A DNA stretch of 32,891 bases from Haplosporangium gracile (lineage: Eukaryota > Mortierellomycota > Mortierellomycetes > Mortierellales > Mortierellaceae), in assembly GCA_015499985.1 (NCBI GenBank), contig JAAAUF010000453.1, forward strand, positions 1 through 32,891. The letters run 5' to 3'. Position 1 is the first letter of the stretch; the number at the start of each line of letters is the position of its first letter. Both the position numbers and the translations under genes were made by a program. This document shows positions 6,341 to 24,790 of this stretch, in pieces. Under the pieces are notes generated by a model, which did no database searches, was not told where the DNA came from, and was given only the letters and a program-made list of their open reading frames with translations.

Positions 6341-6605
6341 TGTGCTCCAGGTGGAGGAAATACTACGAGAATTGAGCAGAAAGAAAGGAGGCAACAGAGA
6401 TCATGTCCTTTGAAGCCATAGAAACCATACAACTGCATCGCACCTCCATCTGCATACCACGCGAAATCAAACCTTGTTTCTTATCCATCACTGTGCCTGA
6501 ATGTGAAGCCTTGTGCCTGTTGAGCTGGAAGCAGTCCCTTCTATCTTTCTCTTTTTATAAAAATATGATCGGGGAATTCTTTCTGTCATTCCACCTTCTC
6601 AACCA

Positions 6606-18771: not shown

Positions 18772-21700
18772 TCGACGTCACTTCTCTTATCTTCTTTCCG
18801 GCGGAAGGGATACAACCCTGTCGAGCTTTACCACGTTATAATCGACAGCCTCTCCACCACCGGTCGACGGCGTTTTGATGTGGTCGGCTCCTGCTTTCCA
18901 GCGATCAGAGACGCCTATTTCAAGCATCCACAGAAGGAGGCGCACAGCATCTTGCAGAAGAAAATTGAGTGATTTGGCAAAAACAACATGACTTAATACC
19001 TCGATGGCCCTCAGGCGGTTGAAAAGAGTGCCACGGCAGAAACGCGCGAGTCAAAACGACAGAAGGTGATAGAGAAGCTTTCGGGCAGGCTGGATACCTT
19101 CGAGAATAGGATCGACGAGGGCTCAAGAATACGCAAGCAGCATTACAACGACATCAAGAAGCATTACAACGACATCAAGAAGGGCCTCGGATCGTCATGT
19201 TACTGGAGTCTCGATAGCAGGCAGGACTTTGCTGAACATATGCGCGGGCAGGAGTGGATTGTTGTGGTCTGTGATACCGAGGCGGACGTCAAGAGTGCTG
19301 GCGGCACACTACCAGGCGACATTATCATCTCAGGTGATTCAGACATGCTGGGATACGCGAACATTTACACTCTATGGCGGCCCGTCTCCAAAACTGTTAT
19401 TCTGGCCTATTTTCTACCCGACATGCTCAAAACGATCGGGCTATCCCATGCGCAGCTTACGGCGCTTGCGGTCGTCTCCAAGAATGACTACCAACGCAAT
19501 ATCAAAGGGCTCGGACCTGCCAGCAATTTTGGTGTGATAAAGAGGCTTCGAGGTCTTTCATGTAACGTCGTGCTTAATACGTTCTTTCTTTCCTCGTTGT
19601 TCTAATGTCTTTTTATAAGTTGTATTGTAACCACAACTTTTTTCCTTTTGAAATAGATCCCCGTTTGATTGTTGCTGCTTATCTGTCCGACCCCACTGTC
19701 ATCACGAAAAACAAGCAGGATGCGACTTTCAACTATTCGATCAGGGACTTTATCGAGATGAAGCAGCAGCAAGTGTTGGATCCGTTCCGCCCAAATCCCA
19801 TGCAAGCAGTTTATCATGCTCTACAGAAGCGATTCCTAGACCTATGCCAGAAGCGCGAGTCTCTTAAAGATGCCAAAGGAAGCGAAGCCCAGCCAAGGTA
19901 AATTGAGAAATCTAACGTTTTATCTACTTTGTAATAAACCTTATTGTGAATAGCTTGTCTCATTGTTTCTTATTTCCGCTGTACGTTATTAGGCCTGTCG
20001 AAGAGCCGATTGTGCGTCTTTGAGTTCCACGTTCATTCAATCGTCATCGCCCCGTGGAGTCTCCAGACAATGTAACCAAGGACACAGGAGCTCCTTCTCT
20101 GCAATCTGAGGAGTGGCCGCCCGGCTTTGACTAGGACAAGGGTTCCTCGTCACCGTGAGCGCTTCTCGTTTCAGGAACGGACTCGAAGAAGTCCCATGCT
20201 CCACCTCCTCGCATGAAGCTGCTCACATTGAAATACTACAGGAAGCTCTCAGAGACAACAAACAACAAGTCGACCTCTACCAAGCCAAAGACCAGCGTAG
20301 AGAAGGCGCCTGCCTTGGCAAAGAAGCCCTTGACGGAGATGAAGAAGGTTGACCTAGTTCGGTCGCTTGACTGGCGTCACCCATCAGTCGGCCTCGAGGT
20401 CGGAACTCTCAATGCTAATACGAAGAGAGTGTTTATGAGTGGATGCACATCATCGACAACGCCCCCTCCGACTATACCAGGATCCGCCTCACTCTCTCCA
20501 ACCGCGCCCAGTCTACTCGCATCCGATCTACAACGTATAGTGGTGGAGTGTCTGCAGGAGTGTTTTCGCCTGGCGGCCGACAAAAAGCGCGAGACCCAGC
20601 GTCTTATTGGTATCTTTGTAGAGACACTACGCATTCGGATGGATTCCGCGAAGGAGACCCTCGGGATCAAGTTGTTGGCAGAAAAGTAGACCATGACAAA
20701 AGAGCAGCGCATCAAAGCGCGCAGGGATGCAGTCTCGGATACTGAGCGGTAGATCCTCGACCACCTGTCTGAACGGATCAAGCCCAAGGATGAGGATGAG
20801 GACGAGGATGAGGGCGAGGATGAGGGCGCCACCGATACTAAGAGACTGAGCAACTCCGACCTAGACGAGAAGGTCAGTAATCAGGAGGAGTTTTTACTCG
20901 CATTCCTTAATTTTCTGTATTCCGGCAATAATCCCCGGGAAAGAGCTTAGAAGGGATTTGGGCCGAGAGATTTTTTGCCCAAGGACAAGGATGATGATGA
21001 GGATAAGGCCAAGGACAAGAAGAAGACCAGCGCCGGGGTAGTTGTCAACCATCTCATCGATTGGCTTGTCGCTGGCCATTTCTACAAACCCCTTCGGAGA
21101 CGAGATGAAATCGTTGTGAAGATGCCCTACACTCCTACATACCTCGTTCGATCTGTGGTAGGTCCGCTGGCCGTGGAGTTCGATTATGTTTGTTATGGCC
21201 GTTTTACTGGAAGTATCTCTAACACTGATTATTTTCCCCATAGGTCCAGACCATGCAGCAGGAAGGCACACTGGAAGCCAGTATTGATATCCGGATCCAG
21301 GGGCAGATCTCAGCCGTTGAAAACTTTTTGTTTTTCAACAAACACACCAATAACAGCAGACGGATCGTACCCATCACTACTTCACAGCAGTCGTTTGTAT
21401 CATTTTCGGAACGGGAGTTGGGGGCTTTCTTTTGGAAGAGAGAAGTACTGAAGCGGAATCTTTGTGAGCTTGCCCTGCAGGACAGTACCAGGCTCTACTC
21501 AATTGATGATCTCGACTGCTGGATTGGATCCAAGGAGCCGGGCTTTATCATCAAGCGTTTCACCTGCGATGTTGGCTTGAAGGGACTGACCAGCAGAAAG
21601 AAGAAGGCCGGCCACCGAGCAGCTGTCAGGATGTGGGCGCTGGATGACATTCGCTCTCATTTGCAGCAGTTCCTGTTAGAAGATGAGAAGAAAGTCAAGA

Positions 21701-23309
21701 AGAACGCCAAGGAGGACAAGGAGAAGGACTTTCACCCTGCTAAGTACAAGAAGAAGGGTTATGTTCTTCGAAGGTTGATTCTCACAGTTGGGTTCCGAGT
21801 CAAGTTACAAGCATTCAAGCTTCGCAAATTGAAGGATGTTCGATATCGTCGTTAGAGAGAAGATCGATTGCCACCTAGGCTGACTTCGACTGTGAACGGT
21901 ACCGACTATTATTTGCAGGAGATTCAGAACGTGCTCACCTGCAAGGAGGATACTCAGCGATTTTCCCTAGGAGTCGACGTCAAGGACATCAGAACGTTGA
22001 CCCTAGATGCCGGACAAGCCTGTGTTATCGAAGAACTCGCTCACCTTTCCGAGGAATTGCAAAGAAGACGAAGGGCAAGGAGATCGTCAAAGATCTATCC
22101 CTCAACGACATTGTCGCCTCAAAACATCTGCCTTCTGCCTTTGTGTCAACATCACCAGCCTCCCCATCATCGACCACGGCAACATCGCTTACAGCTCATC
22201 ATACATTCTTCGGCTCCTCTTCTAACAACTCGGCTCCCCTATCTACACAGAACGTTTCCTCATCAACAACCTCGGCTCAACCCTCCACAGCCAGCCCAGT
22301 TCCATCGCCACGACCAGTTTTTTTCAATTTGGCTGTGAAGACCAAGGCTGCTTATTAACCAACTTTCAAATTTCACAGATGGGCCAAGAGCGAGAAAGGC
22401 AGCACGCTGGTCGGTCAGGACAGATCCGTAACGGATATTGAGACACATCTGCCCCCTATGAAAGGTCCTTCGTCAAATGTCATCAACTACATCAAGGAGC
22501 TGGAGCGCGTGGAGGAGCAGCTAAAGGGATTCTACAATGGTCCGGATGCCAAGTACAAAAGGCACAAATGGGACATGCAACGAGCACTCCACGGCGAGTT
22601 CCAACTTATCGCTCACCGTTTGCTTGGAATTGTGGGAGAAGGACTCAGGATCCGCAGCGTCTCCTCCAAACCTGTCATCATTAATGTAGGGTTGAGCAAG
22701 TTTGGCACCAAGAGCGGACTGACATCTTTGCACTCAACTTTCCTGTCCTACTTTATATCTTTGGTAAGCATTGCCTTGTGTTTATTTATTAATATTGAAA
22801 AGACACTGTTGTTGCTGTGTTTGTGTATGATCAAATAACTAATATAATGCCTTCATACTTTACATTAGGCGCGCTCTCTTGGGTACATCGTTCTAGGATT
22901 AAACGAATATTATACTTCCAAGAAGTGTCTGGCATGTGGTCTCTTCGTCGCGCAAGTAGATCTTAGACGATTCTTCTGTTCCCACTGTCAAGTTTACCAC
23001 CACAGGGATATCATGGCGGCTGAGAATATGGCCAACATCATACAGGGCTATCTCTTCGACCAGCAGCGCCCAGATCATCTCCACCCAGTCGCCCCGGATG
23101 GAACCATGCCCTGGAAGCAGGAGCCCAGCAGAGGATCCAACACGAGCCCAGGAACTGTTGGTACCTCCTCCACCACTGGCCCCACTTCGATCAAGACCGC
23201 TGCTGGTGGCTCCGCCAAGACTGCCCCTCCGTCCAAAAAAAGGCAACGCAAACGGTCGTCCACTGTCTCGAGTTTAGAGCAATCCTCATCAAAGGTAGCT
23301 AGGAAGTAG
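18772..23309 (+). pseudogene. Decayed gene: FEN1/XPG-like PIN nuclease fused to a TnpB/Fanzor-like RuvC with zinc ribbon
   Basis: The coding order is continuous but broken. Segments: about 18772-19561; 19657-19897 and 19993-~21187 (flanking 95-nt introns); 21244-22763; 22869-23309. Together they make about 1390 codons. The N-terminal part resembles a Rad2/FEN1-type PIN nuclease: acidic residues in RRRFDVVG, YLDGPQA, CDTEADV and ISGDSDMLGY, then SKNDYQRNIKGLGPASNFG, like the FEN1 DY..I.G+G helical motif. The C-terminal part has a RuvC-I-like LTLDAGQACVI (Asp codon 22006), GYIVLGLNEYYTSKKC, a zinc ribbon of two CX2C pairs (codons 22926, 22935, 22977, 22986), and RuvC-III-like HHRDIMAAENM (Asp codon 23007), ending in a Lys/Arg-rich tail. 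Disablements: no clear start; a 2-nt loss near 18797; in-frame stops at 18970, 18994, 20021, 20132, 20687, 20750, 20948, 21853 and 22356; a 1-nt loss in an A-run at 22061-22063. The 22359-23309 part is open apart from a clean intron (22764-22868). Family naming is by motif only. Confidence 0.75.
19140..19181 (+). repeat. Exact 21-bp tandem duplication inside the pseudogene
   Basis: The unit gcattacaacgacatcaaga (plus a) occurs twice back to back at 19140-19160 and 19161-19181. It encodes a repeated HYNDIKK heptapeptide in a predicted helical, charged stretch between the two halves of the PIN-like domain. The copies are identical, so the duplication is recent relative to the other damage or was still selected when it arose. 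Confidence 0.9.
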
Positions 23310-23365
23310 TTTAGAGTTTGGGTGTGTCCGCAAATAAACATGTCGTGCTGGTAGGGCGCCAGTCC

Positions 23366-23404
23366 GCGCACTAATATGTTGATACGGTGACGTATTATGT
23401 GCGC
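23366..23404 (+). other. Hairpin 57 bp downstream of the PIN-RuvC pseudogene stop
   Basis: Left arm gcgcactaata (23366-23376) pairs with right arm tattatgtgcgc (23393-23404), leaving one bulged T at 23398. That gives 11 base pairs around a 16-nt loop. GC-rich flanks (gggcgcc at 23354-23360; cgccc at 23412-23416) could extend it. An AATAAA lies upstream at 23333. It sits between the pseudogene and the PFD5 start, so it could be an element-end structure, a terminator-like remnant, or chance. Confidence 0.5.
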
Positions 23405-23493
23405 CCATTGTCGCCCAGCCCTGTTAATTATAGCAGATTGCTAAGATCTTTGACTACCATCATCATCTACCGACAGACACACACATACCGACA

Positions 23494-24790
23494 ATGGCGC
23501 AGCAAAAGATTGAACTTCAGGATTTGGACCTCCAACAGCTGGTTGAGGTCAAGAAGCAGCTCGAGGAAGTAAGTTTTTTGTCATTGACGATTTTACTCCT
23601 TCAGCCGAGACATCAACTTTGCAGGTTCTATTTGAGCTTCCCTTGAAAAGCTAGGGACGCTTTCTACACCCTCAGGCGCGAGCAGAGGAAATACTTTAAG
23701 CCCGACATCAAGCTGGATCGATTCCATCACGACTTTAGCCTCAAAGGACTAGTCGCGTGTTGTTACGATGGTGTTATACATGGGAATGCTAGCATGGCGC
23801 CGAACTGGACTACGAAACGTCGACAGGGAAACTACGCGTGGGACGTGAATCAACTATCTCAGTATACACTCAACATGCGTCGCGTGCTCGCGCCAGGGAC
23901 CACTGTGAGGCACAGTGGCTATGTCTTTGGGTGATAACTTAGGCGCGATCAGTCCACATTCACAGAAACGAAAGCTCAGAGACAGATTGCAGGATATAGT
24001 TAGGAACAGGAGAAACCGTTAAGTACGGCACTACATAACCAACGCCTTTGAAAGAAAATGCGGTGCTAATATCACCCAATCTTTGGAAATGATGATAGGA
24101 ACTTTCGCATTTGACTTCGTCGTTCGGACAGTTGAAGCAGGCACAAAATCGATTCGCAGACTGTATTGAGAGTTGCAAGGCCGTGGATGCCTCAAACAAG
24201 GATAAGACCATCCTCGTCCCATTAACCAGCTCACTCTACGTCCCTGGAAAGCTCGCCAACGTCGAGAAGGTCATTGTCGATATTGGAACTGGATACTACG
24301 TTGAGAAGGTACAAACGCATGGAGCTTCTTGGAGAGCTACTTCTTTAGGTTTCAAGGAGAATGCAAGTATCGTCAAGTGACCGATACAGCGGCGCGACGT
24401 CTATGAAAGCAACTTCATCTGTCCCCTAAATGAGTTAGTTAACAACAGCACTCATCGGAACGATATTTCACATAGACTACCGAGGATGCGATCAAGTTCT
24501 ACAACAGCAAGGTCGATTTCGTAAAAGAGAACTTGGAGAAGATCCAGGCGACTGTCGTACAGAAGCAAGGAAACTTGAGGTGTAAGTGTGCGCTCAGCTC
24601 TGGGTAAATTGTCAAGCGCGTTTTTTCAAACGACGTTTGAATTTTATATCTTTTCAATGAACTCGTCTGATTAACAAACTTGTTTCTTATTCTCTGTTTG
24701 TTCGTGTTTCCATTATTAGCATTGGTGGATATGATGCAGTACAAGTTGCAGATTCAGCAGCAGGATCAAAAGGCAGCAGTGAAGGCATAA
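23494..24790 (+). CDS. PFD5: Prefoldin subunit 5 (GIM5), 4 exons
   Basis: Prefoldin 5 is an alpha-type subunit of the hexameric cytosolic chaperone that passes nascent actin and tubulin to the CCT chaperonin. My exons are 23494-23568, 24099-24308, 24476-24581 and 24720-24790, total 462 nt, 153 residues, the usual size. The N-terminal coiled coil reads LQQLVEVKKQLEEELSHLTS across the first junction. The central hairpin reads LVPLTSSLYVPGKL and VIVDIGTGYYVEKT. The C-terminal coiled coil ends in QYKLQIQQQDQKAAVKA. Exon 3 must end at 24581 (donor GTAAGT at 24582) to give NLRSLVDMMQ. Intron 1 is 530 nt, several times longer than the others here, and contains a decayed coding fragment. An AATAAA at 24836 fits a poly(A) signal. 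The gene is divergent from PRP46, now separated by the pseudogene. Confidence 0.93.
23647..24022 (+). pseudogene. Decayed coding fragment inside PFD5 intron 1 (unknown family)
   Basis: An open frame of 95 codons (23647-23931, stop TGA 23932) has protein-like composition: RDAFYTLRREQRKYFKPDIK, then FHHDFSLKGLVACCYDGV and LNMRRVLAPGTTVRHSGYVFG. A one-base shift at about 23930 opens the next frame, which continues GDNLGAISPHSQKRKLRDRL to TAA 24020-24022. The clean continuation across the shift argues for a real protein C-terminus broken by a 1-nt insertion. It has no start codon and lies wholly inside the first intron of PFD5. I cannot name the family. It may belong to the same element as the upstream pseudogene or to another repeat. 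Confidence 0.5.

Follow-up and report, generated by a model that had tools for sequence, protein, structure and literature searches.

The window analysed here is a stretch of 32,891 nucleotides, the forward strand of contig JAAAUF010000453.1 (C578 in our numbering), from the 37.5-Mb genome of Haplosporangium gracile (Mortierellaceae). Upstream of a gene for prefoldin subunit 5 it carries the remains of a gene in which a FEN1/XPG-type PIN nuclease is joined to a Fanzor1-like RuvC nuclease, within a DNA transposon of the terminal inverted repeat (TIR) type.

The window copy and its relatives

Plus-strand pieces between 18796 and 23273 match residues 10-1327 of the protein encoded by another copy, C129, with their order kept (tblastn), and the last open frame runs to 23309. 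All seven acidic positions of the PIN domain can be read in the motifs RRFDV, YLDG, TEAD, GDSD and KNDY, while RuvC-I (LTLDAGQ), the string NEYYTSKKC-X2-C...C-X2-C and RuvC-III (HRDIM) are still legible downstream. The collinear, same-strand arrangement described in the original prediction, with PIN motifs at the 5' end and RuvC and zinc motifs at the 3' end, is thus found again, although coding homology begins near 18796 and not at 18772. In Pfam, the last piece matches TNB (PF07282) at E 9.5e-12; the PIN piece alone reaches only E 0.08 (XPG_I_2). Seven in-frame stops and two frameshifts interrupt the coding string (Table 1), and neither tblastn against C129, nor the open reading frames (ORFs), nor reading of the sequence recovers the left repeat, the leader or the first ~9 codons. 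This decay, just as previously supposed, marks the window copy as a dead TIR DNA transposon of the Mortierellaceae.

The intact form of the gene is provided by C129, in which five exons separated by four GT-AG introns of 100-104 bp yield a single open frame of 1,335 residues, somewhat short of the ~1390 first estimated. The public prediction at this locus (P0001, 1,358 aa) matches this frame from the PIN domain on, but begins inside the neighbouring transposase-like gene. Counting the window, this genome contains 52 places that match the RuvC tail and, spread over 20 contigs, 24 that match the PIN piece. A PIN match lies 1.8-3.9 kb upstream of a RuvC match, on the same strand, on 10 of these 20 contigs, and this co-occurrence is not due to chance. 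At least three other PIN contigs (C44, C472, C841) break off at the contig end. Contig C508 (L047:6623-7839) holds a 1.2-kb element with both ends present and the PIN exon alone kept; it derives from the PIN-Fanzor element by internal deletion.

Long relatives are found in Linnemannia, Podila, Entomortierella, Gryganskiella, Mortierella and Benniella; the many copies in the present genome and the relatives in other Mortierellaceae are in line with the original prediction. Among 171 collected database proteins, both strict motif sets occur in 15, with the PIN motifs first in every case; 23 show the PIN set only, 21 the RuvC set only and 112 neither, and 137 of the 156 relatives lacking one or both sets measure at most 900 aa. 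In 13 of the 15 two-motif proteins (P0002 and P0010 omitted), distances in the PIN half are correlated with those in the RuvC half (r 0.78, permutation p 1e-4), as expected if both halves travel together. Furthermore, P0016 unites the PIN domain with a Fanzor-like REC/WED segment within a single polypeptide. We therefore regard the fused architecture, a protein of ~1,300 residues, with two nucleases combined as the original prediction held, as close to certain. At the DNA level, intact relatives do not consist of two separate genes. Judging from the open exons and splice sites, the halves appear to share one transcript.

Table 1. Features of the window copy and its flanks (positions in the window)
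Feature	Position	Strand	Basis and remarks
CGACGTCA in left flank, one mismatch from TGACGTCA	18773..18780	+	sequence; adjoins damaged left edge; putative link to window copy
FEN1/XPG-type PIN nuclease domain (C129 residues 10-266)	18796..19587	+	tblastn, ORFs; predicted fold of relative P0016
Stops inside PIN domain	18970-18972, 18994-18996	+	ORFs; start codon and initial ~9 codons cannot be recognised
PIN/H3TH end, low-complexity linker, helical part (C129 residues 255-749, in pieces)	19650..21217	+	tblastn, ORFs
Stops inside linker/helical stretch; frameshift	20687-20689, 20750-20752, 20948-20950; near 20.19 kb	+	ORFs
Fanzor-like recognition and WED-like part through RuvC-I (LTLDAGQ)	21136..22161	+	tblastn, ORFs; predicted fold of relative P0018
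Stop inside recognition/WED-like stretch; frameshift	21853-21855; near 22.07 kb	+	ORFs
Remaining RuvC: NEYYTSKKC with relocated glutamate, TNB zinc ribbon, RuvC-III (HRDIM)	22269..23309	+	tblastn, ORFs, Pfam
Stop in remaining RuvC; intron; final stop	22356-22358; ~22764-22868; 23307-23309	+	ORFs; intron read from sequence
Right-end stem-loop region common to copies; candidate guide-RNA scaffold end	23357..23413	+	covariance model R1, 56.4 bits (window row one of its 14 training rows)
Right terminal inverted repeat; element end ~23420	23385..23420	+	comparison of copies
ATG of neighbouring prefoldin subunit 5 gene	23494..23496	+	73 bp past element end; P0027 carries PF02996

The two nuclease halves

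The PIN half was compared in 36 proteins hand-chosen from the 171, 19 of which match XPG_I at E<=0.01. Its seven acidic positions are kept in 26/28, 34/34, 35/36, 35/36, 35/36, 36/36 and 35/35 non-gap rows, and in 31/32, 44/44, 46/48, 47/48, 45/49, 48/48 and 44/46 where the whole set of 171 aligns. Lys86 and Arg93, seven residues apart in the arch region, are similarly constant (34/34 and 34/35 non-gap rows; 44/44 and 44/45 in the wider recount) and align, in a low-scoring segment, with a lysine and an arginine of the XPG/FEN1 chain 6vbh; presumably they are the counterparts of FEN1 K93 and R100. The predicted model of P0016 shows a PIN fold that includes a helical arch and an H3TH, and its matches are specifically the DNA nucleases FEN1, EXO1, XPG and GEN1. 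With the Rad2 enzymes FEN1, EXO1 and XPG this half thus shares the fold, the seven acidic residues, the arch Lys/Arg pair and an H3TH-like segment with Gly242 in 33/35 non-gap rows. In contrast, identity is only ~14%, the domain belongs to a transposon protein in which it is joined to a RuvC nuclease, and its fourth acidic residue is Asp (in TEAD), whereas that of FEN1 is Glu.

For the RuvC half, 46 proteins were chosen from the 171, mostly through TNB annotation, and TNB is found at E<=0.01 in 43 of them. The catalytic triad is present in nearly all non-gap rows (D430 in 42/43, E671 in 42/44, D705 in 43/44), and across the 171 where aligned (D in 143/146, the relocated E in 53/58, D in 58/60); every catalytic position in the two chosen alignments is at least 93% conserved. 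In the predicted model of P0018 the best PDB matches of the C-terminal half are Fanzor structures, and the REC, WED, RuvC and TNB parts together adopt the overall Fanzor1 fold. The RuvC fold around the zinc ribbon assumed by the original prediction is accordingly recovered; of its wording "TnpB/Fanzor-like", the RuvC nuclease stands, and the resemblance is narrowed to Fanzor1, over most of the C-terminal part and beyond TnpB. Compared with the Fanzor1 proteins SpuFz1, PpFz1 and GtFz1, 451-465 residues align with SpuFz and PpFz, the pre-RuvC part of the model likewise aligning with Fanzor1 structures. According to the part of PMC10711439 considered here, Fanzors have a D-E-D triad with the glutamate placed six residues before the zinc ribbon; the same spacing is seen here, six residues before the first zinc cysteine (E-YYTSKK-C). 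Similarly, C129 fits the Bao-Jurka definition D-X(125,275)-[TS][TS]-XX-C4-X(5,50)-RD, as given in a portion of PMC3627910, with 225 residues as the first X, TS, KK, the four cysteines at 1223, 1226, 1240 and 1243, 5 residues as the second X, and RD. The C-terminal half has a Fanzor1-like build and probably acts like Fanzor1; in terms of membership it is a divergent variant.

The transposon, its ends and its insertion sites

The right-end repeat is common to the copies, and its reverse complement lies ~200 bp before the start codon of other copies. When at most 3 mismatches are allowed, the pattern AATTATGGNGCCCATTNTCCTG is found at 57 places and its reversed control at 1; at least 12 of the 57 lie no more than 40 bases from the beginning of a contig, which would be expected had nearly identical repeats interrupted the assembly. 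A transposase-like gene whose product has a SWIM finger (E 0.0016, under the Pfam cut-off) is present on 19 contigs. On 8 of these it is no more than ~3.3 kb away from a PIN or RuvC match, divergently oriented on seven and on the same strand on C129. Pfam detects no MULE domain in four transposase-like pieces. The TIR pairs of C217 and C618 also enclose transposase remnants. The link of Fanzors to mobile elements, which the original prediction gave as established, is seen here too and can be made more specific, in that several copies sit, as Fanzor1 genes do, inside TIR elements, here probably related to a Mutator-like transposon. On C217 (L063:1143-2273) we further observed a non-autonomous element 1.13 kb long; its terminal repeats, 27 bp each, are identical, it contains a remnant of the transposase, and a target-site duplication (TSD) is not visible. 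C798 (L062:1-1394) has the same left end, and no PIN-Fanzor coding was detected in its first 1.4 kb; the repeats may thus carry other cargo too.

Two known groups of elements invite comparison. Fanzor genes within MuDR-type TIR elements of Mucoromycota, namely ROr-4, PBl-3 and MCi-4, which have 9-bp TSDs, are described in the part of PMC3627910 considered; they resemble the present case as Fanzors of fungal Mutator-type TIR elements, and differ in their TSDs, which we did not find here, and in that no second nuclease, such as the FEN1-type domain fused here, is described there. KolobokP, to judge from part of PMC9587614, is a DNA transposon with a DDD/E transposase that has gained a second nuclease, for which nuclease-driven propagation was proposed; its nuclease, however, is a His-Me finger homing enzyme of animal elements, not a Fanzor, and no two-nuclease fusion is described in that part.

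At the right end, the last ~57 nt of the element fold as a stem-loop in several copies, and the structure pairs 69.8% of cells compared with 33-48% for slid partners. Its covariation score was equalled by 52 of 500 shuffles, RNAalifold gives almost no consensus structure, and the window copy's right end folds no better than shuffles (z -0.49). A right-end RNA scaffold is consequently treated as a lead and not as a finding.

The left ends point to a preferred insertion site. When 2-30 bases were allowed between TGACGTCA and the element end ACAGGACAATGG, 6 matches were obtained with an identical gap in all, placing the element 11 bp from the motif. With the gap fixed and up to 3 mismatches, 15 rows were found (6 with none, 4 with one, 5 with three) and 0 in the control; the five rows with three mismatches are weak or unrelated. 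Among 16 left-type ends read, 9 carry the motif with at most 1 mismatch and exactly 11 bp away, and the other 7 lack this arrangement. C467, which belongs to the nine, leads into the first 17 codons of the PIN gene; several others are known by end sequence alone, their cargo being presumed. TGACGTCA is the CRE/ATF site, so that the element likely settles near promoters. The spacing from this CRE-like site gives a concrete starting point for studying how a eukaryotic Fanzor element chooses its target. The right end of the window element lies shortly before the prefoldin-5 gene (Table 1), and the copy on C718 (L033, reverse strand 6341-6440) is similarly close to a gene start: its end lies ~84 bp upstream of the ATG of an ORF that begins MASLATKLASASLNRSFV and that looks to us like a Rieske protein gene.

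Mechanism and alternatives

Direct support exists for the fused open frame, the predicted folds, the conserved active sites, the repeats, the transposase neighbour and the preferred 11-bp TGACGTCA spacing; RNA guidance, the order of cuts and the benefit to the element are what we infer beyond these. In the protein we envisage, an N-terminal FEN1/EXO1-type 5' nuclease (PIN, arch, H3TH) is followed by a low-complexity linker and a Fanzor1-like RuvC nuclease (REC, WED-like, TNB). A Mutator-like transposase would most likely mobilise the element, either from a divergent gene in larger copies or in trans. By analogy with TnpB and Fanzor, an RNA from the right end might guide the RuvC half to cut a matching site, for example the sister site left empty after excision. 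The 5' ends of this staggered break could then be trimmed or resected by the FEN1/EXO1 half, which would make repair that restores the element by copying more likely. To this explanation as a whole, covering architecture, transposon and mechanism, we assign a probability of roughly 0.55; the guided cut followed by 5' trimming is, taken by itself, a tentative proposal. That the protein is a eukaryotic RNA-guided nuclease with its own 5'-flap or 5'-exonuclease activity in the same polypeptide, the guided break coming from the RuvC half and the FEN1/EXO1 half readying the 5' ends for homologous copying, in a transposon retained at or homing to positions beside TGACGTCA promoter sites, is a slightly more doubtful one.

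RuvC-I is "near exclusively" DPG in Fanzors (PMC10711439, in part), whereas the 46 rows have DLG in 21, DGG in 9, DAG in 7, DPG in only 2, and a different or gapped motif in 7; as DPG is mostly absent, we call the C-terminal half Fanzor1-like and not a standard Fanzor1. The protein is also about twice as long as Fanzor1, usually 600-700 aa (PMC11423790, in part), has the additional N-terminal nuclease, and its guide RNA is a candidate only. By eye, no TSD of the 8-11 bp typical of Mutator was seen in C217, C508, C618 or C718, and these copies may be too old. Right-end covariation and RNAalifold give no clear guide RNA. With the mostly missing DPG, the exact 11-bp spacing and the resemblance of TGACGTAA, inside the right end, to the target motif, this last point would suit a RuvC half that is no longer RNA-guided, acting as a sequence- or structure-specific nuclease or as the element's recombinase, the TGACGTCA spacing then reflecting its own target choice. 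Nevertheless, the pre-RuvC part that aligns with Fanzor1 presumably corresponds to what holds the guide RNA in Fanzors, and the transposase-like gene in or beside several copies could explain mobility, so that we consider loss of guidance improbable.

Somewhat less improbable, if still unlikely, is a genuine fusion whose PIN half matures the guide RNA or opens hairpin or flap intermediates at the element ends instead of resecting RuvC cuts. The stem-loop-like region common to right ends would fit such a role, and PIN-fold enzymes include RNases; the weak covariation of that stem-loop, the specific match to DNA nucleases and the conserved arch-region pair argue otherwise. Finally, a FEN1-like and a Fanzor gene lying adjacent in one element might have been joined merely by gene prediction, given that single-half database entries are common and that the fusion is read here from DNA and gene predictions. 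However, C129 has no stop between the halves and its exons splice in one frame, full-length predictions come from several species, and P0016 crosses the junction in one polypeptide, which leaves this possibility very little room.

Among the matches listed, titles and opening parts of abstracts in the open-access literature describe no fusion of FEN1-type and Fanzor-type nucleases, nor do the portions of PMC10711439, PMC10432273, PMC11423790 and PMC3627910 that were considered. No open-access paper was found that pairs Fanzor with Mortierella or with the PIN domain, and the one such paper found for Fanzor together with FEN1 deals with gene-therapy cargo. If both halves work, guided cutting would here be naturally joined to 5'-end processing, a step that steers breaks towards homologous repair; were the RNA-guided, 5'-exonuclease reading true, the protein would be a natural cut-and-resect editor. 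With both halves working, the fusion would also make the benefit of a Fanzor to its host transposon directly testable, one active site at a time.

Some public predictions touch on these genes. P0032 of Linnemannia hyalina (1,409 aa predicted) combines PF20147 with a TNB domain and might be a genuine fusion or a misprediction. P0027 ("subunit of tubulin prefoldin", 928 aa, PF02996 and PF07282; window 19.8-24.4 kb) is a chimeric annotation, since its predicted introns join the window pseudogene to the real prefoldin-5 gene. P0025, labelled "Elongation of fatty acids protein 2" yet carrying PF07282, may be a similar chimera.
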